IMG/VR virus record: IMGVR_UViG_3300014838_000019 | Location: 1 to 64,000 of that record | Direction: 5' to 3' (one strand) | DNA: 64,000 nucleotides | Source of the DNA: a virus | In this document: one piece after another, positions 13,150 to 42,170 of the stretch | How the letters are laid out: the number at the start of each line of letters is the position of its first letter | Numbering within the stretch: the stretch's first letter is position 1 | Position numbers and translations under genes: made by a program | The notes under the pieces: generated by a model | What the model was told of the DNA's origin: nothing | Database searches by the model: none | What the model saw: the letters and a program-made list of their open reading frames with translations, nothing else

Positions 13150-13155
13150 TATGAC

Positions 13156-14202: not shown

Positions 14203-14217
14203 ATTAACTTTAACGCA

Positions 14218-14251: not shown

Positions 14252-14261
14252 TAGAAAGTGT

Positions 14262-14289: not shown

Positions 14290-14302
14290 TATATCTGACG
14301 AT

Positions 14303-14376: not shown

Positions 14377-14388
14377 ATTTTAGTTTTT

Positions 14389-14572: not shown

Positions 14573-14579
14573 AATTTTA

Positions 14580-14667: not shown

Positions 14668-14787
14668 ATTTTAAATGCGACTGCAACTAGCGATGAAGGT
14701 TCGATTCCTTAGTAAAGTGGAACGCAAGTCAGGGGCATAATCTGATAGGGTTATGTCAGCATTACGATTATGGATATACAGTATCGA

Positions 14788-14878
14788 GGTGAGTTGGTAG
14801 AGATGGATTATTGCACCTGACTCGAAATCAGGAGTGGCCTCAAAACCACCGGGGGTTCGAATCCCTCACTTACCGCCA
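14788..14878 (+). tRNA. tRNA-Ser(CGA)
   Basis: The acceptor stem is GGTGAGT/ACTTACC with discriminator G and CCA. The anticodon arm CCTGA/TCAGG has loop CTCGAAA, giving CGA. The variable arm and T-arm are essentially identical to tRNA-Ser(UGA) at 2419, suggesting duplication and anticodon change. Confidence 0.93.
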
Positions 14879-25148: not shown

Positions 25149-27128
25149 ATGGCAACTACAACACCAAAGTCTTTTCAGCCTAATAGCAAAGACATTCGAT
25201 ATATTAACCGGGATTTCTCTCAACTAAGGGAGGCGTTAATCAATTTCGCAAAGGTTTATTATCCGAATACATATAAAGACTTTTCCCCTGCCGCCCCCGG
25301 CATGATGTTCATTGAACAAGCTGCTTATGTTGGTGATGTACTCAGTTATTATACGGATTATATTTTCGGGGAAACAACCATACAAAATGCCACCGAAAGA
25401 AAAAATATCATAGGGCTTGCAAGTTACTTGGGATATAAAGCTCAAGCAACGACCGCTGCTAATGGAGTTGTTAACCTCCAACAACTTTGTCCCGCTGCTA
25501 CTGATGGAGCAGGATCATATTATCCTGACCCAAATTACATGCTAACAGTAAGTCAAAATACTCAATTTTCCAACCAAAATGGAGCATATTACATATTGAC
25601 TTCGGATATTAACTTCAACGTTAGCACATCATTATCTCCGAGAACCGACCAAGTGTATTCTAGAAACTCAGATGGAACTCCACAGTTTTTCTTGATGACA
25701 AAGGAAGGACCAATTAGTTCTGGACAAATATTGACTATAAACGTTACGGTTGGAACACCGACAGCATATTTTCAAATTCCACTTACGGAAACCAATGTTA
25801 TTGACATTGTTGACATTGTTGATTCTGACAATAACGAGTGGTATGAGGTGGAGTATTTAGCTCAGGGTATGGTTCCTACTGCCGTTCCAAATGATGCCGA
25901 ATACGAAGGATCACTTGCACAATATCAAGATTCCGTCCCGTACATTTTGACATATCTCAAAACATCTCGCAAGTTTATAAAAAGCGTGGATGAGAACAAT
26001 TTGACGACTATTACATTTGGTGCGGGAATAAACGGAGTAGATGATGAATTGGTGACATTTGATTCCAATTTACTTGGGGTAGGACTTCAAAACATAAATA
26101 CTGTAAATGTCCCATTGGACCCAAGCACATTCTTAAATAATGAAAACTATGGCATAGCACCACAAAACACCACCCTCACGGTAACTTACACGATTGGTGG
26201 AGGATTGCTATCCAACTGTCAATCGGGAGAAATAACGAACATAGTAGCACCGATATTCAATAACCCAACGGAAGGTCTGTTACCATCACAAATGGCGTTG
26301 CTTCAAACCGTTCAAAATTCTCTTGCGGTATATAACCCATCACCATGTAATGGTGGTAAAGATGCAGAGACCGACGACGAATTGAGATTAAATGCAATGG
26401 CAACGTTTGCCGCACAGAATCGTGCCGTTACTCAGAATGATTATTTGACACGTCTATATTCAATGCCCTCGCAGTTTGGTTCTATTGCTAAAGCACAGAT
26501 TGTTGCCAATACCAGTTTACAAGTTGGTATCAATAAGATTTTGATTGGAAACATTGACCAAAATAATGTAGCTCAAGTTACTGATAACAGTAATAGTAGT
26601 TACTTGCGTAGCATTGCATATGACAATACAAACCCCTTTGCACTCAATGTTTATATTCTAAGTTATGACGCAAATAAGAATTTAACACCATCCAACCAAG
26701 CATTAATAACAAATTTAATTACCTATCTAAAACAATACAGAATTATTACTGATGGGGTAAACCTAATTGATGGATATGTTATAAATATAGGAGTTAATTT
26801 TACAATCACCGCTTACAAAGGCTACAATAAGAAAGATGTGTTGAGCAACTGTATATCGACCGTTCAAGATTTTTTCAGCATTGACAAATGGAGTTTTTCT
26901 CAACCCATTAACTTGAGCCAATTGAATTTGGAAATAGCCAAGATTGAAGGAGTGCAATCTGTGCCTGTTGTTCAGATTACAAACCTAACAACTATGGATG
27001 GAACTTATTCAGGAGTTCAATATGACATTTCAGCAGCAACTAAGAATAATATAGTATATCCATCGATCGATCCTAGCGTGTTTGAGGTTCGTTTTCCGAA
27101 TAGTGATATTAGAGGAAGTTGCTTATAA
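25149..27128 (+). CDS. baseplate wedge protein, gp6/J-like
   Basis: This 659-residue protein has the features of gp6/baseplate J. It has an N-terminal segment DIRYINRDFSQLREALINF, then FIEQAAYVGDVLSYYTDYIFGE, and a central ETDDELRLNAMATFAAQNRA followed by VTQNDYLTRLYSMPSQFG. In T4 gp6 forms the dimeric ring of the wedge. The C-terminal part (about 480-640) is a beta/alpha repeat like the gp6 core. It starts 2 nt after gp25 and is followed by a homing endonuclease gene. Confidence 0.88.
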   Translation: MATTTPKSFQPNSKDIRYINRDFSQLREALINFAKVYYPNTYKDFSPAAPGMMFIEQAAYVGDVLSYYTDYIFGETTIQNATERKNIIGLASYLGYKAQATTAANGVVNLQQLCPAATDGAGSYYPDPNYMLTVSQNTQFSNQNGAYYILTSDINFNVSTSLSPRTDQVYSRNSDGTPQFFLMTKEGPISSGQILTINVTVGTPTAYFQIPLTETNVIDIVDIVDSDNNEWYEVEYLAQGMVPTAVPNDAEYEGSLAQYQDSVPYILTYLKTSRKFIKSVDENNLTTITFGAGINGVDDELVTFDSNLLGVGLQNINTVNVPLDPSTFLNNENYGIAPQNTTLTVTYTIGGGLLSNCQSGEITNIVAPIFNNPTEGLLPSQMALLQTVQNSLAVYNPSPCNGGKDAETDDELRLNAMATFAAQNRAVTQNDYLTRLYSMPSQFGSIAKAQIVANTSLQVGINKILIGNIDQNNVAQVTDNSNSSYLRSIAYDNTNPFALNVYILSYDANKNLTPSNQALITNLITYLKQYRIITDGVNLIDGYVINIGVNFTITAYKGYNKKDVLSNCISTVQDFFSIDKWSFSQPINLSQLNLEIAKIEGVQSVPVVQITNLTTMDGTYSGVQYDISAATKNNIVYPSIDPSVFEVRFPNSDIRGSCL

Positions 27129-27138: not shown

Positions 27139-28026
27139 ATGGAATATAAAAAACAATGTCCAACTTGTGGGAAAGAGATTGTGTTCTCTTGTAAACAATC
27201 ATTACGATTATCCATAAAAAATAATCGTGATTGTAAACAGTGGTCTGCATTAAAACGTGCTCCGAAATCAGAAGAAACTAAATGTAAAATTTCACAGACC
27301 TTAATTGGAAGAACAATACCACGAGATATAGTTGAAAAAATAAGAACTACGCTCAAGGTTAAATTTAATACTCCCGAATATAAAAATAAGTTCAAGATAC
27401 AAAATGGGGGAGAAAATAATCCCAATTTTGGAAATCATCATGATGAGAAAATAAGAAACAAGATTTCTATTCAAACGAAAATAGCAATAAGTTCGGAGGA
27501 TGTAAGAAATCGTCACTTAGAGTCGCATAGAACAGAAGAATATAGAAATAAAATTTCTCAACTTAATCTTGGGCGAAAGCATTCATGTAATAGTCGAATG
27601 AAAATGAAAGGTCCAAGACCAAGTTTACAAGGCGAAAACAATCCGAATTTTGGAAAACACAGAAAGCATTCGGATGAAGATAGAAGAAAAATGAGAATAG
27701 CTTTCGTGACTCGTCTCGACGAAATGTTTCGAGATGGGTGTGATATAACATATCCAAATTATAATCCGAACGCCTGTAAAATAATTACAGAATATGGGAG
27801 GCAAAATGGATATAAATTCCAACACGCTCTCAAGGGTGGAGAATATCATATCAAAGATTTGGGATATTGGGTAGATGGATATGATAAAGAAAAGAATGTG
27901 GTTATAGAAATTGATGAGCATCATCACAATAAGCCAAGTCAAAGAGAAAAAGACATTCGTCGTCAAAAGGAAATAGAGAAACATCTTGGTTGCAAGTTTA
28001 TACGTCTGCCTTTCGTTAAACCTTGA
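27139..28026 (+). CDS. homing endonuclease: zinc finger, NUMOD3 repeats and Vsr-like nuclease
   Basis: This 295-residue protein has CPTCGKEI at its N-terminus, then NUMOD3-type DNA-binding segments with GENNPNFGNHH (about residue 94) and GENNPNFGKHR (about 165). The C-terminal nuclease has GYWVDGYDKEKNVVIEIDEH followed by HHNKPSQREKDIRRQKEI and CKFIRL. The EIDEHHH cluster fits an EDxHD/Vsr-like PD-(D/E)XK homing enzyme. It is inserted between baseplate genes and is a selfish element. A shortened copy of the same protein lies at 28969. Confidence 0.8.
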   Translation: MEYKKQCPTCGKEIVFSCKQSLRLSIKNNRDCKQWSALKRAPKSEETKCKISQTLIGRTIPRDIVEKIRTTLKVKFNTPEYKNKFKIQNGGENNPNFGNHHDEKIRNKISIQTKIAISSEDVRNRHLESHRTEEYRNKISQLNLGRKHSCNSRMKMKGPRPSLQGENNPNFGKHRKHSDEDRRKMRIAFVTRLDEMFRDGCDITYPNYNPNACKIITEYGRQNGYKFQHALKGGEYHIKDLGYWVDGYDKEKNVVIEIDEHHHNKPSQREKDIRRQKEIEKHLGCKFIRLPFVKP

Positions 28027-28027
28027 C

Positions 28028-28035
28028 TATTTATA
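28028..28035 (+). promoter_or_regulatory. TATTTATA late-type box, leaderless output
   Basis: It occurs in TTGACTATTTATATCTGAT immediately before ATGATTAAG. The T4 spacing of 6 nt after the box falls on 28041-28042, the ATG itself. The same block recurs at 28601. Confidence 0.5.
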
Positions 28036-28041
28036 TCTGAT

Positions 28042-28593
28042 ATGATTAAGTTGAAAGAATTAATAATGGAGACCAAACGAAAACAGTATGGATGTGTTAT
28101 GGCGTGTATTGATGGAGGCATTAAATCCGAAATTCTAAAATTTAATAAATCCATTATTGAAAATGAAATCATTTATGATAACAAAGAAAAAGAATTTGGA
28201 CGGGAGACCGACCCTCACATCACCATTAAATTTGGGTTGACTAAAAATTATACCCGAAAAGATATGGAAACTTTTTTGAAAGATGTATCGCCGTTTACTA
28301 TAAATATTGATGGCGTAAGTGTATTTGAAAATGATGATTTTGACGTTGTTAAAATGGATGTGTCTGGAGATGAACTGAAGAAATTAAATAAGAAATTTAG
28401 TAAATTGCCAAATGAAGATGAACATCCAGATTATCATCCACATTGTACTTTAGCATATGTAACTCATGGTGAAGGAGATAAATTTAACGGCAAATCAAAG
28501 AAATTTTTAAATATAGAAATTAGTCGAATAGTATATTCTTGTTCCGATGGAAAGAGTTATTATAACTTAAAATATTCCTATCCAAAATCTTAA
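28042..28593 (+). CDS. 2H phosphoesterase with a capsid-targeting-like leader
   Basis: This 183-residue protein starts MIKLKELIME and then has two H-x-T motifs, DPHITIKFGL (His59, Thr61) and HPHCTLAYV (His134, Thr136), with the spacing of 2H phosphoesterases. Phage anti-CBASS enzymes such as Acb1 belong to this superfamily and cut cyclic oligonucleotide signals; others act on RNA ends. The first ten residues are shared in pattern with the genes at 28620 and 40198 and resemble T4 capsid-targeting sequences, ending in I-M-E like a prohead-protease site. It may be packaged and injected. The substrate is unproven. Confidence 0.7.
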   Translation: MIKLKELIMETKRKQYGCVMACIDGGIKSEILKFNKSIIENEIIYDNKEKEFGRETDPHITIKFGLTKNYTRKDMETFLKDVSPFTINIDGVSVFENDDFDVVKMDVSGDELKKLNKKFSKLPNEDEHPDYHPHCTLAYVTHGEGDKFNGKSKKFLNIEISRIVYSCSDGKSYYNLKYSYPKS

Positions 28594-28605
28594 AATGGCA
28601 TTGAC

Positions 28606-28613
28606 TATTTATA
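28606..28613 (+). promoter_or_regulatory. TATTTATA late-type box, leaderless output
   Basis: It lies in a second copy of TTGACTATTTATATCTGAT (28601-28619), directly before ATGATTAGG. The expected start coincides with the ATG at 28620. Confidence 0.5.
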
Positions 28614-28619
28614 TCTGAT

Positions 28620-28964
28620 ATGATTAGGATGAAGACATTATTGTTGGAGACTATGGTGAAATTGACTCATGAAGATGCTCAAGAAGTGATGCATAAAATT
28701 GGAGTGTTAGCTGATAATACAGATTTACAAGAGGACTATGGTGTTACATCAGAACAAGCGAAGGCATTGGTACACAGCATTCCTCAGAATGGGGGAGAAT
28801 GGCTCATTCCAGATTGGGGAATAAATGCTGTTAGAGGTGAAATAGAAGACCATATACAGGTGCTTAGAGATATAGCTATGGATGCATACAATAGCAATGA
28901 AAAAGGACAATTTTTGAGAATAAGTAAACAAGCCAAACGATTAACTGCCTTATTTGAGTTATAA
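28620..28964 (+). CDS. small protein with capsid-targeting-like leader
   Basis: This 114-residue protein starts MIRMKTLLLETMVKL, parallel to MIKLKELIMET of the preceding gene; LLE could be a prohead-protease site. The rest is soluble and helical (EDAQEVMHKIGVLAD, and a C-terminal basic helix ISKQAKRLTALFEL). No enzyme motif was recognised. The same promoter block and leader as its neighbour suggest a shared fate, possibly as internal capsid proteins. Confidence 0.6.
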   Translation: MIRMKTLLLETMVKLTHEDAQEVMHKIGVLADNTDLQEDYGVTSEQAKALVHSIPQNGGEWLIPDWGINAVRGEIEDHIQVLRDIAMDAYNSNEKGQFLRISKQAKRLTALFEL

Positions 28965-28968
28965 ATAT

Positions 28969-29139
28969 ATGAAGGAAATAAATTCCAATGAAGAATTGAA
29001 GTGGAAACGAGATTGTCCGTCTTGTGGAGAGGAACTTATTTATGGAATATTAAGAGAGAAGGATATTCGTCGTCAGAATGAAATAGAACAATATCTTAAA
29101 TGTAAGTTTATAAGAATTCCCATCAAATACAAGGTATAA
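28969..29139 (+). pseudogene. internally deleted remnant of the 27139-type homing endonuclease
   Basis: A 56-codon reading from ATG at 28969 joins a CPSCGEELIYG zinc-finger start to REKDIRRQNEIEQYLKCKFI. The first part mirrors CPTCGKEIVFS and the second mirrors REKDIRRQKEIEKHLGCKFI of the enzyme 1 kb upstream. The roughly 230 residues between them, including the catalytic cluster, are missing while the frame is kept. It is best read as a decayed second copy. Confidence 0.7.
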
Positions 29140-29140
29140 T

Positions 29141-31744
29141 ATGCATCATCAGATTTTTCCGGTCACAGATACTTACATAACCGACCGTCCAAATGATTTG
29201 GATACGAAGAACTTTGGTGTGACGGAAATCCTCCAAGTTGGAACTCAGAACAAACTAATAGGATATATCAGTCCCACCACGGATTATCTCTACTCCAACA
29301 TTATATTTGACAGCATTGGGGTTCAATACTTTAACGGCACATTTACGGGGTCTATATTAGGAACGACTGGTAGTTCATATGCATATCTCGTTGGATCGGG
29401 AAGTATTACATCGGCATCTTATTTCAGTGGTTCAGATATAGGTGGGGTAATAAATGGGATTTTTTCGGGATCATTTGAGGTTGATTTTTATGTTGGAAGT
29501 ATAGCCAGCGGTTCATATGTTTGTTTTTATGGAACGGCATCTGGAACTGATACTCGTCAGCAAAGAAGCAGCCAATATAGCACCCAATCGTTCGCCGACC
29601 ACGCTCTATTACAATTTGATATTACTGCTATTTCCCAGTCCATTTCTTCGGGAGATATAGTGAATGCGTCATTTTTCCTAAAAGTCAAGATTTGTAACGA
29701 ATTTGAGATTCCAATGGCATATTCCATTTATGCTGCCCCACTCAGCGAAAGTTGGGTCGGTGGAGTCGGCTATACATCCGATGGTGGAGATTCCAATGGA
29801 GCAAGTTGGGTCTATAGAGATTTTGATGGAGGAACAGCATGGGTCACTGCGGGAGGAACTGTAATACCCACATATTGTACGCAAAGTTTTCAATATCAAT
29901 CGGCTGATCTCGATATGGATGTTACTCCCATTGTAAATCAATGGTTCGCAGGACTTCCAAACAATGGATTTATTATTCAGTCTTCCGATGAACTTTTCCC
30001 AACTGGATCAGGATTCATTCTTAAATATTTTAGCAAAGAAACAAACACGGTATATTCTCCCGTGCTCGATGTAGGATGGGACGATTCCTCGTTTATTACG
30101 GGCAGTTTCTTTACAGCCAGTGCTCAAGTATTATCCATTACAGCGTCATCTATGACAGTAAATGGTAGTGGATCGTGGTTAAATGCCGTTGGAGGAGTTC
30201 ATGGAAACTTTTCGGCTTCAACAGCTATAACCATAGGAACTAACTACATTACATCAAGTGGAAACATGACTATATTCGTAAATGAATTGGTGCAACAATT
30301 CACCGGAAGTTTGACTGGTTCATTCTATGGAATTGCAGATGTCATTTATGGAACTTTGTCAGGAAGTGGGACGTTCTACACTGATTATTACTCGGGGTCC
30401 GTTAACGGATTTCCAATAGTGTCTTCGGGAAGTATAAGTAGTGGATTGATTGATGTGTTCATTAGTGGAACAGTAATAATGCCTACGAGTTCTATTACTT
30501 TATTCACAGGATATTTGTTATCCAATGCCATATCTTTAAATGGAACGGGGTCTGGTCAATATTATGATTCTGCCTCGGTCGCATTTAGTGGGTTCATATT
30601 TGGACAGGGAATATCGGGAAATATTTCAGGAGTTCCCATATTTGGACCGGCATTTGGTGTAATGAGTGTTACAACTACCGTTGTAACGTTGCCAACAGAA
30701 TGGAAATATTCATATCCGACATCTCCCAATGAGGCTCCATACGGAGATATGATACGTCAGATTTTCAACTGTTCTGATTGTGGTGATGGTGGATGGGCTA
30801 ACCGTCCAAACCCTTGGAATGCCTCCCCACCATTGAACAGTCAATTTTGCAATCCAACGCCATATGCATTTGATAGTTTATACTATGTATGGTCAGGCGA
30901 TGATGTTGGATGGACTATGACCCTTCCACAGGCATCATCATCGGTCATAACGTCATCTTGCGGGAAATATCATACCGTTCAAAAAATGGATGGAACGTTT
31001 AGTGATGGAGTTTTCAGTGGAAGTTCATTCTTTGCCTTTTATGAGAACTATAAAATATCATTCGGAATGTTAACTGGGTCGTGGAATCCATCTGCATTGA
31101 ATGGGGAAACGCTTGTCGTTACCTTACCTCCATTGTTTTTCCCATATTATACCGCAGTTCTTGAAGGTCCGTATGCTTATGGACCAATCATGGGTATTTA
31201 TACTACGTCTGGCTCTTATAGCGCAAGTTTTTATGGTCAGTTCACCGACGGAATGTTGTTGGGGGCAATGGCGGACTTTCAACTGTCGGGAAGTGCCGTT
31301 ACTTCAAGTTATGCTTATACGAGCAGCGTAAATTTGTCAGCCAGTTATTTGTTGCCACTCGACGTAGAACAACAGTTCAGCATAAATCTGACCAATTTGC
31401 AGTCAGAATATAAGGCAGGAGATATTATCAAACTCAATGTATTTGGAAGAAAAAAATATCCTCAGAAGTTTTTCGATCATACTAATCAACAAACTCAATA
31501 TCTTATTCCTGAGTTTTTGCCTTCATCGTCATATTATGCGTTAAAAGACAATCAGACTGGAGAAATTGTAGTTAATTTCGATAGTTATACCCGTATAAGC
31601 TGCGACTACCCATATGGAAACTATTTCCTAGTGGATACGACGGGCATACCACAAGAGAGATACTATAAAGTATTGGTTCGTGTGGAAGACGGGTCAATAA
31701 TGGACACGATTGACACAGGAAAAATATTTAAGATAACGAGATAA
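29141..31744 (+). CDS. large tail/baseplate protein with DNRLRE-like domain and Gly/Ser beta repeats
   Basis: This 867-residue protein starts MHHQIFPVTDTYITDRPNDL. Its first 320 residues resemble a DNRLRE/CBM96-type jelly roll: an ALLQFDITAIS strand, SESWVGG, WFAGLPNNGFIIQS and a closing SPVLDVGW. Such folds bind glycans or assemble surface fibres. Next come Gly/Ser-rich beta repeats (GTLSGSGTFYTDYYSGS), a Cys/Trp-rich insert (NCSDCGDGGWANRPNPWN) near 540, and a compact C-terminal domain. It sits directly before further structural genes. It is probably part of the baseplate periphery or a fibre. Confidence 0.65.
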   Translation: MHHQIFPVTDTYITDRPNDLDTKNFGVTEILQVGTQNKLIGYISPTTDYLYSNIIFDSIGVQYFNGTFTGSILGTTGSSYAYLVGSGSITSASYFSGSDIGGVINGIFSGSFEVDFYVGSIASGSYVCFYGTASGTDTRQQRSSQYSTQSFADHALLQFDITAISQSISSGDIVNASFFLKVKICNEFEIPMAYSIYAAPLSESWVGGVGYTSDGGDSNGASWVYRDFDGGTAWVTAGGTVIPTYCTQSFQYQSADLDMDVTPIVNQWFAGLPNNGFIIQSSDELFPTGSGFILKYFSKETNTVYSPVLDVGWDDSSFITGSFFTASAQVLSITASSMTVNGSGSWLNAVGGVHGNFSASTAITIGTNYITSSGNMTIFVNELVQQFTGSLTGSFYGIADVIYGTLSGSGTFYTDYYSGSVNGFPIVSSGSISSGLIDVFISGTVIMPTSSITLFTGYLLSNAISLNGTGSGQYYDSASVAFSGFIFGQGISGNISGVPIFGPAFGVMSVTTTVVTLPTEWKYSYPTSPNEAPYGDMIRQIFNCSDCGDGGWANRPNPWNASPPLNSQFCNPTPYAFDSLYYVWSGDDVGWTMTLPQASSSVITSSCGKYHTVQKMDGTFSDGVFSGSSFFAFYENYKISFGMLTGSWNPSALNGETLVVTLPPLFFPYYTAVLEGPYAYGPIMGIYTTSGSYSASFYGQFTDGMLLGAMADFQLSGSAVTSSYAYTSSVNLSASYLLPLDVEQQFSINLTNLQSEYKAGDIIKLNVFGRKKYPQKFFDHTNQQTQYLIPEFLPSSSYYALKDNQTGEIVVNFDSYTRISCDYPYGNYFLVDTTGIPQERYYKVLVRVEDGSIMDTIDTGKIFKITR

Positions 31745-31747
31745 GAT

Positions 31748-32206
31748 ATGGCTGATTTTTCGATGGACATAGACCAATTTCAGAAGGATGGAACTTATAC
31801 ATATGAGTTTGATGATGCTGGAAACTTGTATTTTAACAGTGCCTCCACTGACTTTTCACAGGTCTATTTATCATTACCATTGACCAACGTATCTTATAAC
31901 AGTGCGAGAATAGAAAAGTTTTACAATCCAACGTTTCTTGAGTTTATTCCAACAACGATTGTTACATCTTCGGCACCAAGCACAGAGGATTTACAGGCTC
32001 AGTTGGGAGTCGTCCAACAAGAAAATATAACATTAAAGTCACAACTTGATAATGTTATTGCTGAAAATGAAACCACAAGCAATTCGTCAGATTCACAGGT
32101 TGTAAAACAAATAATTTTGGAATTAAGAATAGCCTTGGGGCAAGGTCGAGTAGCAGCAAATTTCTCGGATACATTTCCGTATGCGCCGTTAACGGCACAA
32201 TCATAA
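31748..32206 (+). CDS. small structural protein with coiled-coil
   Basis: This 152-residue protein has an N-terminal beta-rich region (FDDAGNLYFNSASTDFSQVY) and a heptad-like helix at about residues 80-108 (TEDLQAQLGVVQQENITLKS). A C-terminal helix and an aromatic tail follow. It begins 3 nt after the preceding gene and ends 1 nt before the 1,760-residue gene, so it belongs to the tail operon. It is probably a small trimeric connector. Confidence 0.55.
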   Translation: MADFSMDIDQFQKDGTYTYEFDDAGNLYFNSASTDFSQVYLSLPLTNVSYNSARIEKFYNPTFLEFIPTTIVTSSAPSTEDLQAQLGVVQQENITLKSQLDNVIAENETTSNSSDSQVVKQIILELRIALGQGRVAANFSDTFPYAPLTAQS

Positions 32207-32207
32207 T

Positions 32208-35200
32208 ATGGATTACATATCATATCAGTCAATCTCCGAAAACTCACAAAGTTTGAATACGGGTTCTTATTTGAATCCTACGGAATATGCTATGTTTGTA
32301 AATGGGTTCGTTCCAGATTTATGGTATGGACTGTCGGCTAAAGATGTGGTTGAAATTGGACTTTGGGATAGAACTGAAAATCAACTTGGATGGGATATAT
32401 TATATCAATCGAAGAGTTATGATGCTGTAACTGTATCCTATTTGGATTCTAAAAATAATTCCGTCACATACTCTTATAAAGAGCTTATTCCAGATTTCAT
32501 TCTGAATAAAACGAACAATCTATTGGTTGATCCAACAAATAATATTTCATCGTCCTTTTCCATTTTTAGCGGAAGCTTCAATCTGACATATAATTTGACC
32601 CGAGAAATGGCAGGTTCTCCTACTATTCCATTGGTCATTACAGACATAGCCCCATCAAGGACTGAAGTAAAATTACTTCCGTTATCAGCATCAGACGATT
32701 CTTACACTGCATTTTGTCAGCATCAAGTTTTGATACAAGATGCGTCCCCACTGTATATCAGTTCGCTTACATCATGTCCTTACGGTAAGATTTTAAGCGT
32801 AGTAACTCCTCTCTATACCAATCAAATTTCTACAATCCGAAACTTATTTTTCATTTCATCTGAGGGTGGAATAGAACTATTTTTCCGTAACATTTATGAA
32901 GACTTGCTCATGTATTCTTCGAATACATTCGGGGTTCAGAACTTTATCCGAATTCAAGGAATCAAGACGTATTTCACAAACTATCTTCTGTCTAATGGAG
33001 ATACTATAGTTAATTTCAGTGATATTGATTCTAATTTCGGAGCATTGGTTTCGGCTTCAATCGAACGAAAGTTTGTGTCGGTAGGAAAAAATCCTCCGCA
33101 AGAATATGTCAATGCCAAAGAGTTTGTATATGATTTCTTCACTAAGTATTTTTATACTCCAATATCCAATACGCTTCAGACCACATATAATGACAAATAT
33201 TTTGGATATTTTAAGAACGCTCTGAATGTTGGAAACAACCGCTTGCTTCCAATATTAAGTATAGGAATGATGGATGAGAGAACCAGTCCATATGATCCTC
33301 TGACGTTGCTTATCAAACTTAAAGACGGGTTACCTTCCGATCTTACGATGCAGACTCAATGCTGGGTCTCGAATATTTCGTTGGTTCCTCAGATTGTTAG
33401 TTCTATTTTGGTTAGTAATACATCGATCGGAGTATATCAAATTGGTCCTCCAAACTTTTCTATACCAATCCCACACGCAAGTTTGACTAATACTAATACG
33501 TCTTACACTGCGAATGATTTGACGCAGACAGACGAGGCAGAACGTCAAATTACTGTTGGCCAGAACATACAAAAATTGTCGGTAGATTATACCGATTTCA
33601 GTAACTTCGTTCTATTTTCATCTGCTGAAATGCGTTTGAAAGTATTCAAAAATAAAGCCATAAATCTGTGTGTATTAAGTGCATCGTTAGGATCATTGAA
33701 CACAATTGCTAATACGTTTCTCGTAGCAAGTGGAAGTGTCTATCCATATTATACTCAAGAATATACGACCATCCAAACTCAGATGGATAATATCATAAAC
33801 ACGTTTGATGGTTATGAGTCATATCTTTATAACAATGGAAGTTATGCCTTCCAAAATGGAGAATTTGTAAGTTCCAGTTATGTAGCGAGTCAAGATGTGA
33901 TCGCTACTCAATATGATACTGACAATCGTGATAGTTTGGTAAATACTTGTCCCGAACACGTTCTAACTAATCCCGATAATGATGATTATATAATATTCCT
34001 TTCGATGATTGGTCACTTTTTCGATAACATTTACATTTACATTGCTAACATGCCTTCGGAAAAGAAGTTGGGAAATGATACGACTTCTGTGTTTTCTCGA
34101 CAAGTGGTTGACTACATGCTAGAAACTTTCGGGTGGGATATTGGAAATTCTCTTGAGCAAACCGATTTACTCAACAATTTCTTGACTTCCAACCAAATTG
34201 CCGGATTAAACAGTATGTCGGCGGAAGACCGATTGAAAACGATTCGTAATCGCATCCTACAAAATCTTCCGGCCATTTACAAGGCAAAAGGAACGGACGA
34301 AGCAGTTCAACTCATTTTAGGGTGTTATGGTATTCCATCGGCTCTTCTTAGCGTTCGAGAATATGGTGGAGTAAACTACAACGACCCATCGGCAGCTTAT
34401 ACGCTCTATGAGCGTGTTTATATGCGTCAGTGGGATACTTCGTCTCGATATGACTCTTACGACCTGCAAGTTCCCACAGGATCACATACGTATTTGTTCA
34501 AAATACACCTTGACGACTCTACTCCATACACGTATGGAAATGAGCAGATTTTGTTTGGGAGAGTTCAAGATTCGAATAACACGTCTGTTAGTGGTTCGGG
34601 CGAGTGGTCAACTGGATTTGTTCGCATTCCTAAAAAGAATACTGGGCAAATATTCTTCAGAATTGGATATAAAGGTCAAGAAGAGTTTAAGTTATACAGT
34701 CCTGAATTTCCTCTGTTTGATGGAAACATTTATAGTATAATGATTCGTCGGAATTATCCCGATGCGAATTTTGATATTTCAACCAACCCAGATGTAGTAC
34801 CGGCTCTTTACGATTTGTATGTAAAAAGAAATCAATTTGGAAATCAAGTTGTAGCTCTGTCATCCAGTGCAGTTTGCTATGATGTTGGAACCAATTCTCG
34901 ATTTAGTCAAGGTGGATTGATTAAAATTGGAGGATGGTTCTCTGATTATAATGGTCAAGGATTTACTGGAGCATTCGATAAGTTTCAAGCTTGGTTAAAC
35001 CCAATTTCCAATGATGACCTTGAAAACTATGCAAACAATTTTAATGCATATACTTCTCAAGTAAGTGGGGCACTTTCCTATAAATCATTGTTTTTCCGTA
35101 TGCATACAGATTATCCATTCAATCAAAATGTGAATGGAATATGGAGAAATGGAAACCCATATTTTGCTGTATCTTCATCGGTAAAACTGAATACTCTGTA

Positions 35201-37490
35201 TGGAGAGCCAAACTGCAATGTTGATTATATCGTAGGAACCTTGCCTTGGTCTGGTTCGACCGAGATGGTAGAAGGACCATGTGGTCTTGTATCCCAATCA
35301 GTTTATCCGTGGCAATGGAAGGTGTTTGATTATCCTAGCACATGGGGAATGTCTCAATACGGACCCAATAAGTTTCGAAATGAGAAGACGAAATATGTCT
35401 CTCAATCGTTGCAAGTTCGCCTAGACAACTTAAACCGTTCAACCTATGTGGATACGAGTGGAATAGCACCTGATTCCAATCAAGTTGGATTCTTTGCTGA
35501 CCCACAAGATTTCAAAAATCGTGATATTGTTCGTTACTTTGGTAATTACAACTTCATGGATGCTATTGGAGACCCCGAGCTTCAGTTCTCTCAAAGTTAT
35601 GACCCACTGCGTCTATTCCGAAAAGAGTTTGCTGAGGATCAAAATCAATTTAGCGGAAGCCGAACACTGTTCAATGAACTTCTCACTACTTACAAGTTAT
35701 ATTTTAATCGTTCGGTATTTGATAGCATTAAGAATGTGGTTCCTGCGAGAACAAACGCCCTAGTGGGGATTGTTATAGAACCTACTATTTTGGAGAGACC
35801 GAAATATCAATCGAAACCAATGGAAGTTAAGGCGAGGTATGCATTCGAAGTGCCAATTGGACGATTAATGCGAATGACTGCTTCGTTGGCTCCGTCTCAT
35901 TCAATGAACTTGGATGTTAAATATGTTTCATACCCTAACAAAGATTATCCCGTCAATTATGGTGGAAACTATATTGGAGATTTGACCGACCGTATTGAGT
36001 TCGGGCATTTCGCTGCTGGAGTTCCACCTCGATACATTGATTTTTCTGCAAGTTTAGTTGCGGGGGTTGCACCATTGATTGTTTATTTCACTAACCTTTC
36101 ATATGGAGCAAGCACGTATGTTTGGGATTTTGGAGATGGTGTAACTGATTCAAATCCACAAGAGAACATAGTGAATGGTAATTATCCCGTTACACATTCA
36201 TATTTGTTACCCGGCGTTTACACTGTTACATTAAATGGATACTACGGTAGTTACGGATTGCACACTACCAAAATAGGATATATAACAGTTGGTTCCTATC
36301 CATTTAATGCTGATTTTGCCGCAAGTCAAAATATTGGATTAGCACCATTGTCGGTAACATTTACTAATAATACCACCCCGGGTGCAGCTAACTATTATTG
36401 GGATTTCGGGTCTGGATCAGCAACTAGTACTGCTTATTCCCCAACTCAAGTATATACAAATCCCGGCGTTTATAACGTGACATTGGCATCATCCACATCA
36501 TCCATATCAACCGGCGTATTCGCTTCTCAACATGTTAGCACGAGTTATATCACAGTATTGTATCCGACCAATAATTGCAATGGACCATATTTCAATGCTG
36601 TTGCTGGAGGAATATACGGACACTATTCAGTATCACAATCATATATGGTTTCCCTTGGGTCACTTGAAACTCCCGTTACTGTTAGTTATAATGCAGGAGC
36701 AAGTGCATCTCGATATGTTGTCACCATAAACGGAGTGCAAGAATATGATAGCTTATGGGTATCTACTGCTGGAACAAGTTCGGCTATTATTAATTCCATC
36801 AATTCGGCACTGATTTCATATGGAGCAGTGACCGCATCATTCCTATCAGCATCGTCGGCGAATGTGGTGACTGCATTTAATAATTCTCTATTCTACTTCA
36901 ACAAAGATCAGAGTGGAAGCATAACTCAAGTAACAGTGTATAATCCATTTAACACGACTTCTAGCTTTACAATGAGTTGCCCTACAGCTATAGCTCTTGC
37001 AACTGGATCGGCTCCACCATTATTCACTTATAACTCGGAAACGGCAGTATCTATAGTTTCAGATGCTGGTGGAAATCCATATCCAACATCATTCTTCATT
37101 CAGTTTACAAATGTGGACGATGATATGGCATTGGCTTGGTCGGCTAATAGTCCTATTCGTATTGTATTATGGTATAATGGAGTTGCACAAAATCCAGTGC
37201 TTTCTCTAGGAAATCCGAATTTCAATTACAACGGAAGCTTATTTGGTGACACTGGTTACATTGGTGATCCAAGTCAACAGGGAGTATTGAATAATGCCCT
37301 AATTGCTCAAGGTGGTGGGGCGGCTATTATTACTCCATTTACACCGTTGAATGGAGTATCAAGTGGAATATTCCTAAATAGCTTCTTTGAAAAACAATCA
37401 TGGGGGGCTGGATCGAACGAGCTGGCGGTTCAAGTTTATGCTCCAATTCCTAACACCAAGTTTACCATAACAGTGGGGAACCCATACTAA
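32208..37490 (+). CDS. giant tail/baseplate protein with two PKD domains
   Basis: This 1,760-residue protein is the largest in the window. Residues 1-700 look like a structural baseplate domain, with LQTTYNDKYFGYFKNALNVG and a helical VFSRQVVDYMLETFGWDIG, then AEDRLKTIRNRILQNLPAIYKAKGTDEAV. This recalls wedge-like phage proteins that carry a conserved helical segment before beta domains. About 730-920 is a concanavalin/LamG-like region. Two PKD domains follow (about 1273-1365 and 1364-1450), with YVWDFGDGVTDSNPQ and YYWDFGSGSA as their signature strands. The C-terminal 300 residues are beta-rich. It may be a wedge protein fused to an adhesin arm. Confidence 0.65.
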   Translation: MDYISYQSISENSQSLNTGSYLNPTEYAMFVNGFVPDLWYGLSAKDVVEIGLWDRTENQLGWDILYQSKSYDAVTVSYLDSKNNSVTYSYKELIPDFILNKTNNLLVDPTNNISSSFSIFSGSFNLTYNLTREMAGSPTIPLVITDIAPSRTEVKLLPLSASDDSYTAFCQHQVLIQDASPLYISSLTSCPYGKILSVVTPLYTNQISTIRNLFFISSEGGIELFFRNIYEDLLMYSSNTFGVQNFIRIQGIKTYFTNYLLSNGDTIVNFSDIDSNFGALVSASIERKFVSVGKNPPQEYVNAKEFVYDFFTKYFYTPISNTLQTTYNDKYFGYFKNALNVGNNRLLPILSIGMMDERTSPYDPLTLLIKLKDGLPSDLTMQTQCWVSNISLVPQIVSSILVSNTSIGVYQIGPPNFSIPIPHASLTNTNTSYTANDLTQTDEAERQITVGQNIQKLSVDYTDFSNFVLFSSAEMRLKVFKNKAINLCVLSASLGSLNTIANTFLVASGSVYPYYTQEYTTIQTQMDNIINTFDGYESYLYNNGSYAFQNGEFVSSSYVASQDVIATQYDTDNRDSLVNTCPEHVLTNPDNDDYIIFLSMIGHFFDNIYIYIANMPSEKKLGNDTTSVFSRQVVDYMLETFGWDIGNSLEQTDLLNNFLTSNQIAGLNSMSAEDRLKTIRNRILQNLPAIYKAKGTDEAVQLILGCYGIPSALLSVREYGGVNYNDPSAAYTLYERVYMRQWDTSSRYDSYDLQVPTGSHTYLFKIHLDDSTPYTYGNEQILFGRVQDSNNTSVSGSGEWSTGFVRIPKKNTGQIFFRIGYKGQEEFKLYSPEFPLFDGNIYSIMIRRNYPDANFDISTNPDVVPALYDLYVKRNQFGNQVVALSSSAVCYDVGTNSRFSQGGLIKIGGWFSDYNGQGFTGAFDKFQAWLNPISNDDLENYANNFNAYTSQVSGALSYKSLFFRMHTDYPFNQNVNGIWRNGNPYFAVSSSVKLNTLYGEPNCNVDYIVGTLPWSGSTEMVEGPCGLVSQSVYPWQWKVFDYPSTWGMSQYGPNKFRNEKTKYVSQSLQVRLDNLNRSTYVDTSGIAPDSNQVGFFADPQDFKNRDIVRYFGNYNFMDAIGDPELQFSQSYDPLRLFRKEFAEDQNQFSGSRTLFNELLTTYKLYFNRSVFDSIKNVVPARTNALVGIVIEPTILERPKYQSKPMEVKARYAFEVPIGRLMRMTASLAPSHSMNLDVKYVSYPNKDYPVNYGGNYIGDLTDRIEFGHFAAGVPPRYIDFSASLVAGVAPLIVYFTNLSYGASTYVWDFGDGVTDSNPQENIVNGNYPVTHSYLLPGVYTVTLNGYYGSYGLHTTKIGYITVGSYPFNADFAASQNIGLAPLSVTFTNNTTPGAANYYWDFGSGSATSTAYSPTQVYTNPGVYNVTLASSTSSISTGVFASQHVSTSYITVLYPTNNCNGPYFNAVAGGIYGHYSVSQSYMVSLGSLETPVTVSYNAGASASRYVVTINGVQEYDSLWVSTAGTSSAIINSINSALISYGAVTASFLSASSANVVTAFNNSLFYFNKDQSGSITQVTVYNPFNTTSSFTMSCPTAIALATGSAPPLFTYNSETAVSIVSDAGGNPYPTSFFIQFTNVDDDMALAWSANSPIRIVLWYNGVAQNPVLSLGNPNFNYNGSLFGDTGYIGDPSQQGVLNNALIAQGGGAAIITPFTPLNGVSSGIFLNSFFEKQSWGAGSNELAVQVYAPIPNTKFTITVGNPY

Positions 37491-37491
37491 T

Positions 37492-38262
37492 ATGAATCTA
37501 GACGGACAAGTATATTTTGACATGTTCCGAACATCTCATCCAACGATTGGGAACTCAGTATTTATGCTCAAACGATGGACTAAGAATACCATTTATGCAT
37601 TAAGCGGTTCTTACAAACATCATCAAAGTCAATCTTGGCACAGTGTATCCGACCCAAGATTTAACATGTATTCTACTAATTCCATATATTTGTATGATTA
37701 TGTGTTGGTAAACGATGCATTTTTTGATGCTGCGGTTTATACCTCCTCCAGTGTTGATTCAACCCCCGCTGGAATTGCAAGTTACGCTGGAACTATAAAC
37801 GGTACAGCATCATTTTCTCATAGTGCAAATACATGGAAAAATAGTCCAAATGCAACAACTAACAACTATTTGTTAAGGTATAATCCTCTTGCAAGTTCGT
37901 TTAGAAAATTCCCCGTGTATGGGCTTGACCCCGGATATGCCGCAACGGCATCATATCAAGCGTTAATGGCGACTCCTATTTATACTGATAATGGGACGTA
38001 TTTCGAAATAGTCAGTGGATACCCGAGGAATCACCACACCCATAAAAGAAACATGTTTGCGGCAGAACGATTCACAAGCTATGGATTGACTGGAGATTTA
38101 TTTATAGGAACTACGATTACATCTGCATCTTACAGAACGGGATTTCAGACGGCGGCGACAACCATTAATTCAGGAGGATTAAGCGACGGAACTGATCCAG
38201 TTCAATCGTTCCAAGTAACGAATATTAATTTCATACAATCGAACAACGTAATTTACCAATAA
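37492..38262 (+). CDS. structural protein of the tail operon
   Basis: This 256-residue protein starts 1 nt after the giant gene. It has a beta-rich N-terminal part (GQVYFDMFRTSHPTIGNSVF) and Ser/Tyr-rich centre. A motif GYPRNHHTHKRNMFAAERF (about residues 175-193) has clustered histidines and basic residues. The C-terminus ends in beta repeats. No enzyme motif. Position suggests a baseplate or fibre-connector component. Confidence 0.55.
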   Translation: MNLDGQVYFDMFRTSHPTIGNSVFMLKRWTKNTIYALSGSYKHHQSQSWHSVSDPRFNMYSTNSIYLYDYVLVNDAFFDAAVYTSSSVDSTPAGIASYAGTINGTASFSHSANTWKNSPNATTNNYLLRYNPLASSFRKFPVYGLDPGYAATASYQALMATPIYTDNGTYFEIVSGYPRNHHTHKRNMFAAERFTSYGLTGDLFIGTTITSASYRTGFQTAATTINSGGLSDGTDPVQSFQVTNINFIQSNNVIYQ

Positions 38263-38312
38263 AAAGCATCAACTCACTTATACTTATAGATTAGAACCCG
38301 ATTTATAAAAAT

Positions 38313-38960
38313 ATGGCATATATTGACAACCAGAGCATCACTGTTGATGCAATTTTGACCCAAAAGGGTCGCCAACTGTTGGCACAAAATGGCAACTTGA
38401 ACATTACATCATTTGCGCTTGCCGATGACGAAATTGACTACACGCTGTATCAGCCAAACCACCCGCAAGGAAGTGCTTTCTATGACATTGCTCTTCGCAA
38501 TACACCAGTATTTGAACCACTGACTGATGAAACACAAGTGATGAAATATAAGTTGGTTACCCTCAATCAGGGTGTCACGTCCATTCCAGTCATCACTATT
38601 TCTCAAGACAAGATTTTGGTTACTTCTACATATACGGGAGATATTATAATAAATCCTTCCACTAACCCAACATACAATTTACAATTGGGATATACAGCAA
38701 TTCTTGGAAACAAAAACGTGGGATTGTTGATTGTTCAACAAACTAATGCGGTTAACTCTGTTTCCAATACGGTTCCAACATTTGCAGGAAACATTAACAT
38801 CGCCAGTGCTCAAGTTGTTGTTGGTAATAGTTTCCGATTTGTCCCAAACAGTGGATTGACCCAGACCACCACGACCAATTTAACCATCATTGGCAATGAG
38901 TCGGGAGGAAGCACTTCAATTGAAGTTACTGTTACAGTTCCCACGACTACTACCTCCTAA
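38313..38960 (+). CDS. virion structural protein with ILTQKGRQLLA motif
   Basis: This 215-residue protein starts MAYIDNQSITVDAILTQKGR. The opening motif (VDAILTQKGRQLLA) with ITSFALADDEIDYTLY is a pattern I associate with small tail proteins that recur in tail modules of large myophages. The C-terminal 100 residues are a beta-rich Ig-like domain (VGNSFRFVPNSGLTQTTTTN). An A+T-rich block (ATTTATAAAAATATGG) precedes the start. The role is not established. Confidence 0.6.
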   Translation: MAYIDNQSITVDAILTQKGRQLLAQNGNLNITSFALADDEIDYTLYQPNHPQGSAFYDIALRNTPVFEPLTDETQVMKYKLVTLNQGVTSIPVITISQDKILVTSTYTGDIIINPSTNPTYNLQLGYTAILGNKNVGLLIVQQTNAVNSVSNTVPTFAGNINIASAQVVVGNSFRFVPNSGLTQTTTTNLTIIGNESGGSTSIEVTVTVPTTTTS

Positions 38961-38968
38961 AAAAGATT

Positions 38969-40117
38969 ATGATATTCAATACATTTGACCCCAATCAGGA
39001 TGTTGTAACGGGACGTGTTACCCAAGTTGCCAGTGGTTATTGGCCCGATGGCTCTCCTAACTGGGGGCAAGGAAATTTCTTGTCAGATTTTTGGAGAAAT
39101 ACGGGGTCGTCAGCATCTCCATCATACGGAACGTCTTATTATGACGTTCTATACACAATGTATTATTTGAATGTGTTTCCAGACATTGGGACATATACAA
39201 ATTACGATCCATATTTTTCCATTACTTATGGAAACTTTTATGGGGAGTTCGGAAGTGGTTCATTTGCAATAGAATCGTCGAGTATTATGGCATCTCCTAC
39301 AAAGGCTATTTACAGTCAATATAAAAATGTTTTACTTGCAGATTCTAATGTTAGTGCTACTTCCAATGGAATGTTTTCCATGATTAGCGCAAGCACCACC
39401 GTCAATGCGACAGATATTTGGGCTATAAACTTTTCGGCTTATAAAATGAAAGACCATGTTGATGAGGGTCTTCTTCAACTTAACTTCAGTGGTTCAAATG
39501 GGTTGTTTTCATTCATTGATGACTCGATCTATACATCCAATAATCAATCCGTATATCAAATAGTTCCCGGAACTATTGATGCTCCCAATGCCTCTCCGAC
39601 GTATGCTGGTATTGGATTGTTTTATCCACAATCAGGAATTGTTATTCTCAATGCCGCAGTTCTTGCTAACATCCTCGGAATCACCATCACCACTGGAACA
39701 GGACCGGGAACGGGCGGACCATTGCCCGATGGATCGTGGCCATATAACTCATCATCTCTAGCAACCAATTACACCTACAATCACATGACTCTGTTTGAGT
39801 CAATGAACAGTTGTGTTGGACTTGACATGAACGTTCGCAAATCAGAGTATGTTCCTTCTCAACATTACTTCGTGCGTGTAATGAATCGTGATTTTAACTA
39901 CAGCAACAACCCAACGTATGTATGGGATGGAACAGATGGAATTCATCCACAAGGGTTAATATACAACTCGGATTTTATTACTGACCCCAAGACATATATT
40001 ACGAGTGTTGGACTGTATGATGACAACAATAACCTTGTTGCCATTGCGAAGTTGAGCCGTCCAGCAGTCAAATCATTTGACCAAGAATTGCTCATAAAAG
40101 TCCGTCTTGATTTTTGA
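38969..40117 (+). CDS. tail structural protein with shared C-terminal clamp domain
   Basis: This 382-residue protein is beta-rich with a Ser/Tyr-rich middle. The C-terminal about 45 residues (ITSVGLYDDNNNLVAIAKL, then PAVKSFDQELLIKVRLDF) closely parallel the end of the 845-residue gene at 44770 (LIGIYDGLQLVALGKL, then PIKISPELPINFVVKMDF). This shared C-terminal module probably mediates virion attachment. It also carries a GTGPGTGGPLPDGSW loop. Probably a baseplate or fibre-attachment protein. Confidence 0.65.
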   Translation: MIFNTFDPNQDVVTGRVTQVASGYWPDGSPNWGQGNFLSDFWRNTGSSASPSYGTSYYDVLYTMYYLNVFPDIGTYTNYDPYFSITYGNFYGEFGSGSFAIESSSIMASPTKAIYSQYKNVLLADSNVSATSNGMFSMISASTTVNATDIWAINFSAYKMKDHVDEGLLQLNFSGSNGLFSFIDDSIYTSNNQSVYQIVPGTIDAPNASPTYAGIGLFYPQSGIVILNAAVLANILGITITTGTGPGTGGPLPDGSWPYNSSSLATNYTYNHMTLFESMNSCVGLDMNVRKSEYVPSQHYFVRVMNRDFNYSNNPTYVWDGTDGIHPQGLIYNSDFITDPKTYITSVGLYDDNNNLVAIAKLSRPAVKSFDQELLIKVRLDF

Positions 40118-40197
40118 CCATAAGTCATTAATAAAATAGAGTTTTGACTATGTGGATCAATAGTTCTTAAATGCGTTATTTGAGTATATTTATTATC

Positions 40198-40737
40198 ATG
40201 ATTAAACTCCTCGACCTTCTTGTAGAATATCATGATACTAATATTTGGTATCATGGGTCTGCGTCAGGAGATTTGCGTGGAGGTAAAACAGGTCTTCATT
40301 TAGGAACTGCTTTGGCGGCTAAACAAGCATTGGAAGCAACAATTGGGATACCCATCGAAGGATACTGGGATGGAACTCGTGAATATGGAAAAACTTTACT
40401 TTGTGGTAAAAATACGTTAAAACATAGAGGAATTTTTCCAACGGGGATTAATTGTGATGTTACGGAGGAAGATTTCTATGTTACGCCAGAAATCATTCGC
40501 CGACGGTCATCCTTTATAACATCATCAATGAAACCCTCTATAAAAAAGTATAAGATAGTTTGTAGAATGACAAATACTCCGGAAAATCCATATCCCGACT
40601 TTAAAGCCAACGGATATATGGGCGGGTTACTGAAACGAGGAATAGCGAAAAATGGATTTTATTACAAAAACGAGTCCGAAGATTATGGGAGTATATCCGC
40701 TGTAGTTCCAAATGGAACTTGCGTGAAAGAGGTATGA
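40198..40737 (+). CDS. ADP-ribosyltransferase-like protein with capsid-targeting-like leader
   Basis: The ATG at 40198 (MIKLLDLLVEYHDTNIWYHG) was chosen over 40171 because it reproduces the leader and the TATTTAT box spacing seen at 28042 and 28620. The 179-residue product has WYHGS (His19) followed by GLHLGTALAAKQAL (about 32-45), which resembles the start of ADP-ribosyltransferase-type NAD-binding folds. A Tyr/Glu pair later could complete the site. T4 packages and injects the ADP-ribosyltransferase Alt, also targeted by an N-terminal leader. The ART assignment is tentative. Confidence 0.55.
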   Translation: MIKLLDLLVEYHDTNIWYHGSASGDLRGGKTGLHLGTALAAKQALEATIGIPIEGYWDGTREYGKTLLCGKNTLKHRGIFPTGINCDVTEEDFYVTPEIIRRRSSFITSSMKPSIKKYKIVCRMTNTPENPYPDFKANGYMGGLLKRGIAKNGFYYKNESEDYGSISAVVPNGTCVKEV

Positions 40738-42170
40738 TAAAGCAAATCAATCCTCAGAATATTCTGATTTCGCCGTTTATTGCGGCTAAATCTCGTGCTT
40801 TATCCAACACAGCAAATTCTGATATAGTCATCCTTGAACAAGATACCACTGAAACGATTGGTATTGCGCTCGAATATATTGATTATAATTTTGGAACTCC
40901 CCTACTTAATCGTGACTGTAATATAGCTCTTGAGCAACAAAGCAATGATCTCGCAATGTATCAAGAAGGTGTTTCGGGATCGGGAACATTCAATAGTCAA
41001 TCAGCAGTTTTAAATGGAGATGGGACCTATAAAGTTCTTGTTTACAACACAGTAAAGAATCTATTCTATAATACCTATAATAATCCTACTGAGATTTTAG
41101 GTCTTGAACATATTGATTTTCCTCTTAGTAACACCCTCCGAAATCTGTCACAACAGTTTCGAATGTTTTCTATCCCCCAAAGTGTTTTTGGAGATAGAAT
41201 ACAACCTAAAAGTGTTCAGCTTTTCGACGAACTTTTGGATGATAACATCATAATTTTTGACGATGGAAACCAAAACCTGATTGCTGGGTATAATTTATTT
41301 TCAAAAGTTCAAGAGGTTCACACATATCCGGCTGGATTTAATCCTCAGATTCTACTACCGGGAGCAGTGAGTCTTTCATGCCCAGTTTACAATCCTGTAT
41401 ATTTCACTCTCAATCCGTCTCCACAGGGAAATTGGACGACTCCGACATATATTTACGAGTCATTACCCGACAAAAATTTCTTTACAGCATCATTTACGGT
41501 AAGCGCAAGTGCAGGAAACAATGAGATAACATTCCAATGGTATTCAGGAAGCACTGCATTAGTTGACAATGCTAGAGTAACGGGAAGTTTGGTGGTATCT
41601 AGCTCAGTATCGGGTTCGACTTTACAAATTAACGATCTTCAATTTAGTGATTATGGTAATTACTATTGTTCGGCAACAGACAATGCAGGAACTTCCTTCA
41701 GTTCAAATGGATTATTGACTGTTTGGGATAATACGGTGTCTCAAAGTATGGTTGATACAATGACGTTGGGAACCTCCGTTCTTTATGGTAGCACTACTAC
41801 ATTGCTACCATATGGGGAAGCAAGTGTTCCAACATTTGGAACAACACTACGTAGTGGTTTGGTAGTTAACAATGTCTTCTATGCTAATGCATACGAAACT
41901 GCTTCTGTATCGGTTGGATTTGATAGTGGATTATTGTTTAACGTTCTTGTTCCATCGTATGGAGGACAAGAAACTGCTTCTGTATCGGTTGGATTTGATA
42001 GTGGATTATTGTTTAACGTTCTTGTTCCATCGTATGGAGGACAAGAAACTGCCTCAGTATCAGTAGGGTTTGATAGTGGACAACTTACAACACTTGTAGG
42101 TCCATATGTGAGTGTTACAGAAACACCGGCAACATTTGCAGTAAGCTTATTGACGGGAAGCGTCTTTTAA
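40734..42170 (+). CDS. fibre/adhesin protein with Ig-like domain and triple C-terminal repeat
   Basis: The start at 40734 overlaps the previous stop (ATGATAA), indicating coupling; 40719 is less likely. The 478-residue protein has a 240-residue structural N-terminal region (NPQNILISPFIAAKSRALSN). An Ig-like domain follows at about 245-330: FQWYSGSTALVDNARVTGSL, then LQINDLQFSDYGNYYCSATD with the Y-x-C signature. The C-terminus has three units of ETASVSVGFDSGLLFNVLVP, two from exact 75-nt DNA repeats. Ig-like domains on phage virions are thought to bind surface glycans or mucus. Confidence 0.7.
   Translation: MIKQINPQNILISPFIAAKSRALSNTANSDIVILEQDTTETIGIALEYIDYNFGTPLLNRDCNIALEQQSNDLAMYQEGVSGSGTFNSQSAVLNGDGTYKVLVYNTVKNLFYNTYNNPTEILGLEHIDFPLSNTLRNLSQQFRMFSIPQSVFGDRIQPKSVQLFDELLDDNIIIFDDGNQNLIAGYNLFSKVQEVHTYPAGFNPQILLPGAVSLSCPVYNPVYFTLNPSPQGNWTTPTYIYESLPDKNFFTASFTVSASAGNNEITFQWYSGSTALVDNARVTGSLVVSSSVSGSTLQINDLQFSDYGNYYCSATDNAGTSFSSNGLLTVWDNTVSQSMVDTMTLGTSVLYGSTTTLLPYGEASVPTFGTTLRSGLVVNNVFYANAYETASVSVGFDSGLLFNVLVPSYGGQETASVSVGFDSGLLFNVLVPSYGGQETASVSVGFDSGQLTTLVGPYVSVTETPATFAVSLLTGSVF
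41895..42069 (+). repeat. 75-nt tandem repeat, two exact copies plus a diverged partial
   Basis: Units at 41895-41969 and 41970-42044 are identical (start GAAACTGCTTCTGTATCGGT). The third, from 42045, matches only for its first third, with third-position changes. The unit is 25 codons, so copy-number change stays in frame. Confidence 0.9.

Follow-up and report, generated by a model that had tools for sequence, protein, structure and literature searches.

The internal proteins of bacteriophage T4 carry a capsid targeting sequence that links them to the prohead core and is cut by the gp21 protease (PMC5694885, PMC3012670). This leader is the only homologous part of IPI to IPIII, proteins that counteract GmrSD restriction enzymes (PMC12373910, PMC9391042). 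In the T4 record IPII and IPIII start with MKTYQEFIAE/A and gp24 with MAKINELLRE/S, the motif ending at E10 in each case (a slash follows the residue at which the peptide is or would be cut), and gp21, starting with MNEPQLLIE/T, is in nearly the same register. The head propeptides of phiKZ and SPN3US are also N-terminal and removed by a prohead protease that cuts C-terminal to glutamate, as is proposed here; they differ in that several exceed 100 residues and that the SPN3US cut follows AxE (PMC5694885). Here we describe a stretch of 64,000 nucleotides, referred to as the window, which forms part of the 75,836-base virus record IMGVR_UViG_3300014838_000019 from a distant T4-like lineage. Three of its genes, named 28042, 28620 and 40198 after their first positions, begin with similar ten-residue leaders, and these are very probably capsid-targeting propeptides of the T4 kind.

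Leaders, register and protease

A first-pass annotation of the window had proposed that the three genes share a ten-residue start. All three starts are present where expected: the translations begin with MIKLKELIME/T (28042), MIRMKTLLLE/T (28620) and MIKLLDLLVE/Y (40198), with IME, LLE and LVE at residues 8-10. A search of the 64 kb with the degenerate DNA pattern for M-I-[KR]-[LM]-x-x-L-[LI]-x-E returned exactly these three sites, compared with 0.01 expected from dinucleotide shuffles. The annotation regarded the remainder of each protein as unrelated, which is borne out by a Pfam search of the three that found no common family match and by the different folds of the two modelled proteins, 28042 and 40198. 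Its suggested likeness to T4 targeting sequences extends to the register, since [LI]xE ends at residue 10 as in IPII, IPIII and gp24. An alternative start for the 40198 frame exists at 40171; the start at 40198 is favoured because of its TATTTAT box and because the orthologue in relative G016 has the leader MILLKSLLSE/RF ahead of the same domain. This orthologue (L106:17212-17753) is at a different location, with a TATTTATA box, and its leader is intact while the reading frame is broken downstream. The 28042 orthologue in relative G001 starts with MIKLRDLILE/N.

The record encodes a gp21-family protease past the window end, with a Peptidase_S77 match (PF03420, E 3.2e-28) at 66793-67218 of the record. 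In its gene order from portal to protease, the record agrees with T4 and with two cultured relatives, Microcystis phage Mel-JY01 and Flavobacterium phage immuto. The portal is ~24-50% identical to those of known phages, with ~50% identity to the two cultured relatives, and gp25- and gp6-like baseplate genes are also found in the record. The protease's own N-terminus, MNMSKTLLME/C, was considered as a targeting leader and not counted, its E being replaced by D in more distant relatives. In the alignment rows shown with T4 gp23, capsid proteins of relatives have QL[IL]xE/[AS] or QIVSE/A at the gp23 site FLTE65/A, where we take T4 gp23 to be cleaved after E65. These capsid proteins suggest that the lineage's protease would cleave after [LI]xE.

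Conservation of the motif was assessed in the family of the 28042 protein, a 2H phosphoesterase, with 47 distinct N-termini ahead of a YGC[VLA]M-type domain start and 2000 shuffles. The sequence before the domain start is highly variable apart from the motif: [LIVMF]xE is kept in 43 of the 47 N-termini (shuffle mean 20.4, maximum 31) and [LIVMF][LIVMF]xE in 38 (mean 8.5, maximum 18), and the residue after hydrophobic-hydrophobic-x is E in 41 cases and D in 2. This comparison indicates selection on the [LIVMF]xE motif. Across the contigs covered, 48 of 1515 candidate start methionines and 2 of 4928 internal ones showed the leader pattern when any residue was allowed at position 10; with E required there, the counts were 20 starts and 0 internal methionines (Fisher p 2e-13, indicative only, the genomes being related and the pattern drawn from the leaders). 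Every 2H-carrying record of at least 250 kb among those searched has an S77 match, some of these being below the family cut-off. The DNA pattern matched 32 times in ~7.0 Mb of S77-positive records (backwards control 1) and once in ~1.8 Mb of records without detected S77 (backwards control 3), a comparison that is not unbiased since the records were chosen via 2H or other homologues. Several S77-positive phages had zero exact-pattern matches because their leaders differ, e.g. MKHVKLFEEFMNE or MENFDLKKFLVE.

Other leader-like starts were noted in addition. About ten small genes near head/tail genes of LR756508 (L010 17811-36743) start with MK..E.KLR.IIKE or alike and form a second leader-like family. 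In immuto (L132-L138) four genes start with M.NFDLKKFLVENKLT or alike and two with MKKQILSEQF.RMQ.LAGIITES; these families are lineage-specific, and many of their members lie near structural genes.

In the reading that we prefer, the three proteins would be made late, together with the structural proteins, and the leader would dock each of them onto the core scaffold of the prohead as it grows. Cleavage after [LI]-x-E at residue 10 by the gp21-family protease would then release the leader fragment. The mature 2H phosphoesterase, the ADP-ribosyltransferase-like protein and the orphan would remain with the packaged DNA and be carried into the next host, able to act ahead of phage gene expression. 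The most likely task of the 2H enzyme there would be to degrade cyclic oligonucleotides that serve as alarm signals, or to mend RNA ends of the 2',3'-cyclic type; the ADP-ribosyltransferase-like protein would alter a host factor or dampen its action. All of these steps, from core docking through cleavage and packaging to injection, are inferred, as are the enzymes' targets. Like IPI, IPII, IPIII and Alt of T4, the proteins described here combine a putative propeptide of about ten residues with a predicted protease site in the same register, in a genome that has a gp21-family protease, and one tag is carried by otherwise unrelated accessory proteins. Unlike in T4, the cargo is not of the GmrSD-inhibitor type; the leaders are not homologous to those of T4 beyond the motif, and the lineage is very distant.

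Several observations weigh against this scheme. Many of the genomes compared are related, so that the counts are not independent. Some leaders depart from the pattern, by lacking the motif or by having D or S as residue 10, and a 2H copy in one T4-related huge phage has no leader. The capsid gene is not in the window's record, and the specificity of its own protease is taken from relatives. Amphipathic N-terminal helices can also have other roles.

Predicted cargo and its insertion sites

The 28042 protein matches the Pfam families 2_5_RNA_ligase2 (PF13563, 5.3e-11, 43.2 bits) and Acb1 (PF23474, 6.9e-7, 29.5 bits against a cut-off of 27), scoring higher on the general 2'-5' RNA ligase model than on Acb1. 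Its top solved structure in Foldseek is the anti-CBASS nuclease Acb1 (7t26, E 8e-6), and comparison with LigT-type enzymes gave Z ~14. Two HxT motifs are present, H59-I-T61 and H134-C-T136, whose H and T are invariant in alignment A3. Sequence and model together indicate that it is a 2H phosphoesterase, with the 2H fold and two HxT motifs in common with the Acb1 proteins of T4 (57B) and FBB1. Unlike 28042, T4 57B is without a [LI]xE leader before the domain; its gene directly adjoins the internal protein gene ipI (NC_000866 73591-74410). For the orphan 28620, no relatives were found in viral_contigs, and bacterial genomes gave only a 21-residue match.

The 40198 protein probably contains a domain of the ADP-ribosyltransferase superfamily, judging by its model; sequence comparison gave no sign of it. 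The top VIA-align rows were RES, ParT, MbcT, PARP and Tpt1 chains (best Z 5.8, rmsd 4.1, 105 residues). The best PDB match in Foldseek had E 0.17, and the matches in the viral structure library included ART-PolyVal-named proteins, with E 2.7e-4 for the best match overall. We drew no conclusions from families missing in the structural match lists. Searches of phage records and plasmids with the protein gave no matches. The best PDB row of the model was a domain of a Cyanophage A4 pre-ejectosome protein (9k3a_B residues 1420-1599), hinting that the same domain also occurs in an ejected protein of another phage. In common with the ART-PolyVal domains of polyvalent proteins (Iyer et al. 2017, PMC5512222), the 40198 domain is found as one part of large phage proteins and has ADP-ribosyltransferases as fold neighbours; in contrast to these, the 40198 protein is standalone with a leader and not fused, and it had no Pfam match with an E-value of 1 or below, PF18760 (ART-PolyVal) included.

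Leader-bearing genes form arrays in relatives. In G005 a run of consecutive genes encodes NUDIX plus cell-wall hydrolase, an ART-PolyVal protein (MIKLKSILTE), an ART-PolyVal-like protein below the cut-off (MIKLKSILEN), a tRNA nucleotidyltransferase (MIKLTHLLGD, without the E), an orphan (MIKLKSLLKE) and a GNAT protein (MIKLKFMLSE). In G045, G047 and G032 the 2H gene lies within such arrays, which between them hold GNAT, lysozyme, ART-PolyVal, tRNA nucleotidyltransferase and orphan genes, and the SAM lyase of Mel-JY01 starts with MQFKQYILGE. The CCA-adding-like tRNA nucleotidyltransferase-type proteins in leader arrays (L142:7773-9656, L246:7577-9127) would be an unexpected injected cargo, if real. 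The enzyme classes of the arrays overlap those for which Iyer, Burroughs and Aravind deduced injection on the basis of gene fusions and neighbourhoods (PMC5512222, PMC7824862, PMC9503650).

The cargo genes of the window occupy two insertion sites (Table 1). At site 1, the gp6 gene directly adjoins the 29141 homologue in eight relatives, and in G001 the 2H gene stands alone between the borders; in the window, the 2H gene and 28620 lie there, with an endonuclease gene before them and an endonuclease remnant after them. Site 2, which holds 40198, contains an endonuclease-like gene in G016 and G001 and a different small gene in G003, and is empty in G007, G009 and G017. This arrangement fits gain and loss of cargo at the sites. 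Because a NUMOD3 gene and a similar, deleted remnant flank the cargo pair (27139-29139), the layout also suggests that homing endonucleases moved or trapped it.

Alternatively, the leader could serve for docking to the prohead core, or in some other step of assembly, on proteins that are structural or removed rather than injected as effectors. A gene between portal and protease in this record begins with MIKLLRIAES, and relatives have genes of similar length with starts MISLKRIIEQ or alike, as would be expected if the signal were common to likely core parts. However, the cargo consists of enzymes with effector-type domains, is accessory at both sites and matches classes inferred as injected by other phages (PMC5512222, PMC9503650), and we consider this explanation unlikely.

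Table 1. Coordinates of leaders, cargo genes, start elements and neighbouring genes (window positions unless stated otherwise)
Feature	Position	Strand	Evidence or remark
Leader 1 (28042 gene)	28042..28071	+	predicted cut after E10; pattern match; G001 orthologue
Leader 2 (28620 gene)	28620..28649	+	sequence and pattern match
Leader 3 (40198 gene)	40198..40227	+	sequence, pattern match, G016 orthologue
2H phosphoesterase (Acb1/LigT-like), 183 aa	28042..28593	+	Pfam, fold search; mature domain from ~residue 15
Small orphan protein, 114 aa	28620..28964	+	leaderless homologues in phages
Probable ADP-ribosyltransferase-superfamily domain protein, 179 aa	40198..40737	+	alignment A1, model, VIA-align
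26-bp repeat copy 1	28023..28048	+	TATTTAT box, start codon, first codons
26-bp repeat copy 2	28601..28626	+	
TATTTAT box of 40198 gene	40187..40193	+	
gp6-like baseplate wedge gene	25149..27128	+	left border of insertion site 1
Homing-endonuclease-like gene (NUMOD3)	27139..28026	+	beside cargo pair
Endonuclease remnant, internally deleted	28954..29139	+	far side of cargo pair; 75% identity over 24 C-terminal residues; N-terminal motif matches
Structural gene	29141..31744	+	right border of insertion site 1
Border gene	38969..40117	+	left border of insertion site 2
Border gene	40719..42170	+	right border of insertion site 2
Terminase large subunit	59335..60981	+	PHROG 2
gp20-like portal	61049..63169	+	sequence match
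gp21-family prohead protease	66700-67323 of record, past window end		Peptidase_S77

Further features were noted in the left part of the record, namely fifteen tRNA genes (window 113-14878) and a transposase-family gene (window 3113-4318). PADLOC gave no match on the window proteins.

Start elements and the leader as an add-on

Targeting to a membrane or to a phage compartment in the infected cell, with the glutamate incidental, would suit short leaders with one hydrophobic face and a basic beginning. It would leave the preference for E over D, the S77 association and the T4 register unexplained, and seems quite improbable. We give even less credence to the idea that the shared starts carry no peptide signal and reflect only a duplicated promoter and start cassette that recombination or homing endonucleases have distributed. 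An identical 26-mer, TTGACTATTTATATCTGATATGATTA, does lie at 28023 and 28601 before 28042 and 28620 (0 expected), and this pair is the one flanked by the endonuclease gene and remnant. However, the repeat stops one base past the second codon, the 40198 leader has only 13-16 of 30 nucleotides in common with the other two, and the motif is conserved across dozens of homologues despite the varying leader sequence. The 40198 gene has TATTTAT only, at -11, with flanks different from those of the 26-mer.

The TATTTAT start region had been listed in the first-pass annotation among the features uniting the three genes. The box does precede all of them (28028, 28606 and 40187), but as a general element of the clade it makes a weaker argument. 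Clade-wide, TATTTAT shows a peak on the coding strand 11-15 nt before ATG (58 of 126 hits), while ATAAATA has no peak before ATG in the clade. It occurs within 30 nt upstream of 12 of 23 leader genes, compared with 0.5% inside coding sequence; as a leader-specific mark it was rejected, since it also precedes 85 of 514 other clade genes. Probably it is a late promoter or start element of the clade, and it supports co-expression with structural genes rather than marking cargo. Its spacing would suit nearly leaderless late transcripts, and the box is the reverse complement of T4's TATAAATA.

AlphaFold models of the 28042 and 40198 proteins place residues 1-12 at pLDDT <50, with the first strands starting at 16-17 and the domains mostly at ~90 (pLDDT 86 for the 40198 model). 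Fold matches of the 2H and ADP-ribosyltransferase-type domains begin at about residue 13-15. Leaderless homologues exist for all three domains, with similarity from near residue 12. Those of 28620, in Tunturi_5 and Stenotrophomonas phages, match from residue 11-13. Those of 40198 lie mostly inside large multi-domain phage proteins of up to ~2200 residues; their best segments are 48-57% identical, and the similarity sets in no earlier than residue 12-17 (alignment A1). An S77 protease was not found in the seven partial records of these searched. Since it is disordered in the models and homologues of all three domains occur without it, the leader appears as an add-on, dispensable in the sense of occurrence. 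That it is part of the folded enzyme is the least credible account, the helix drawn at residues 4-11 of the 2H model notwithstanding, given the low pLDDT there, the start of the domain matches and the leaderless homologues. The capsid-targeting proposal of the first-pass annotation is thus supported, those of its sequence-level predictions that lent themselves to a test having held; the support comes from the register of the motif, from the S77 protease gene, from the protease site conserved in relatives' capsid proteins, and from a tag that sits on unrelated proteins, is missing from homologues elsewhere and recurs on the accessory cargo of relatives.

A possible portable loading tag

T4 already provides the precedent for this kind of signal; its occurrence in this lineage, on this cargo and in arrays is new. 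As a rule, proteins injected from virions are recognised through gene fusions or through the genes nearby. The accessible literature on the 'capsid targeting sequence', from which subscription journals are largely absent, deals with T4 itself, vaccine and vector platforms, SPN3US, P1 or P22, and no use of the tag to predict effectors in uncultured phages was found in it. It is fairly probable in our view that phages with S77 proteases, far beyond the T-evens, generally use hydrophobic-hydrophobic-x-E near residue 10 as a portable loading tag that marks whole tandem effector arrays. If this is true, the injected arsenal of uncultured and huge phages could be read from sequence, and many unannotated genes of T4-like and huge phages would become predicted injected effectors. 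The 2H enzymes would be delivered before cyclic-nucleotide defences fire, and the question of which anti-defence enzymes act before gene expression would become testable. Standalone effectors and the effectors of polyvalent proteins would then be two delivery routes for the same domains.

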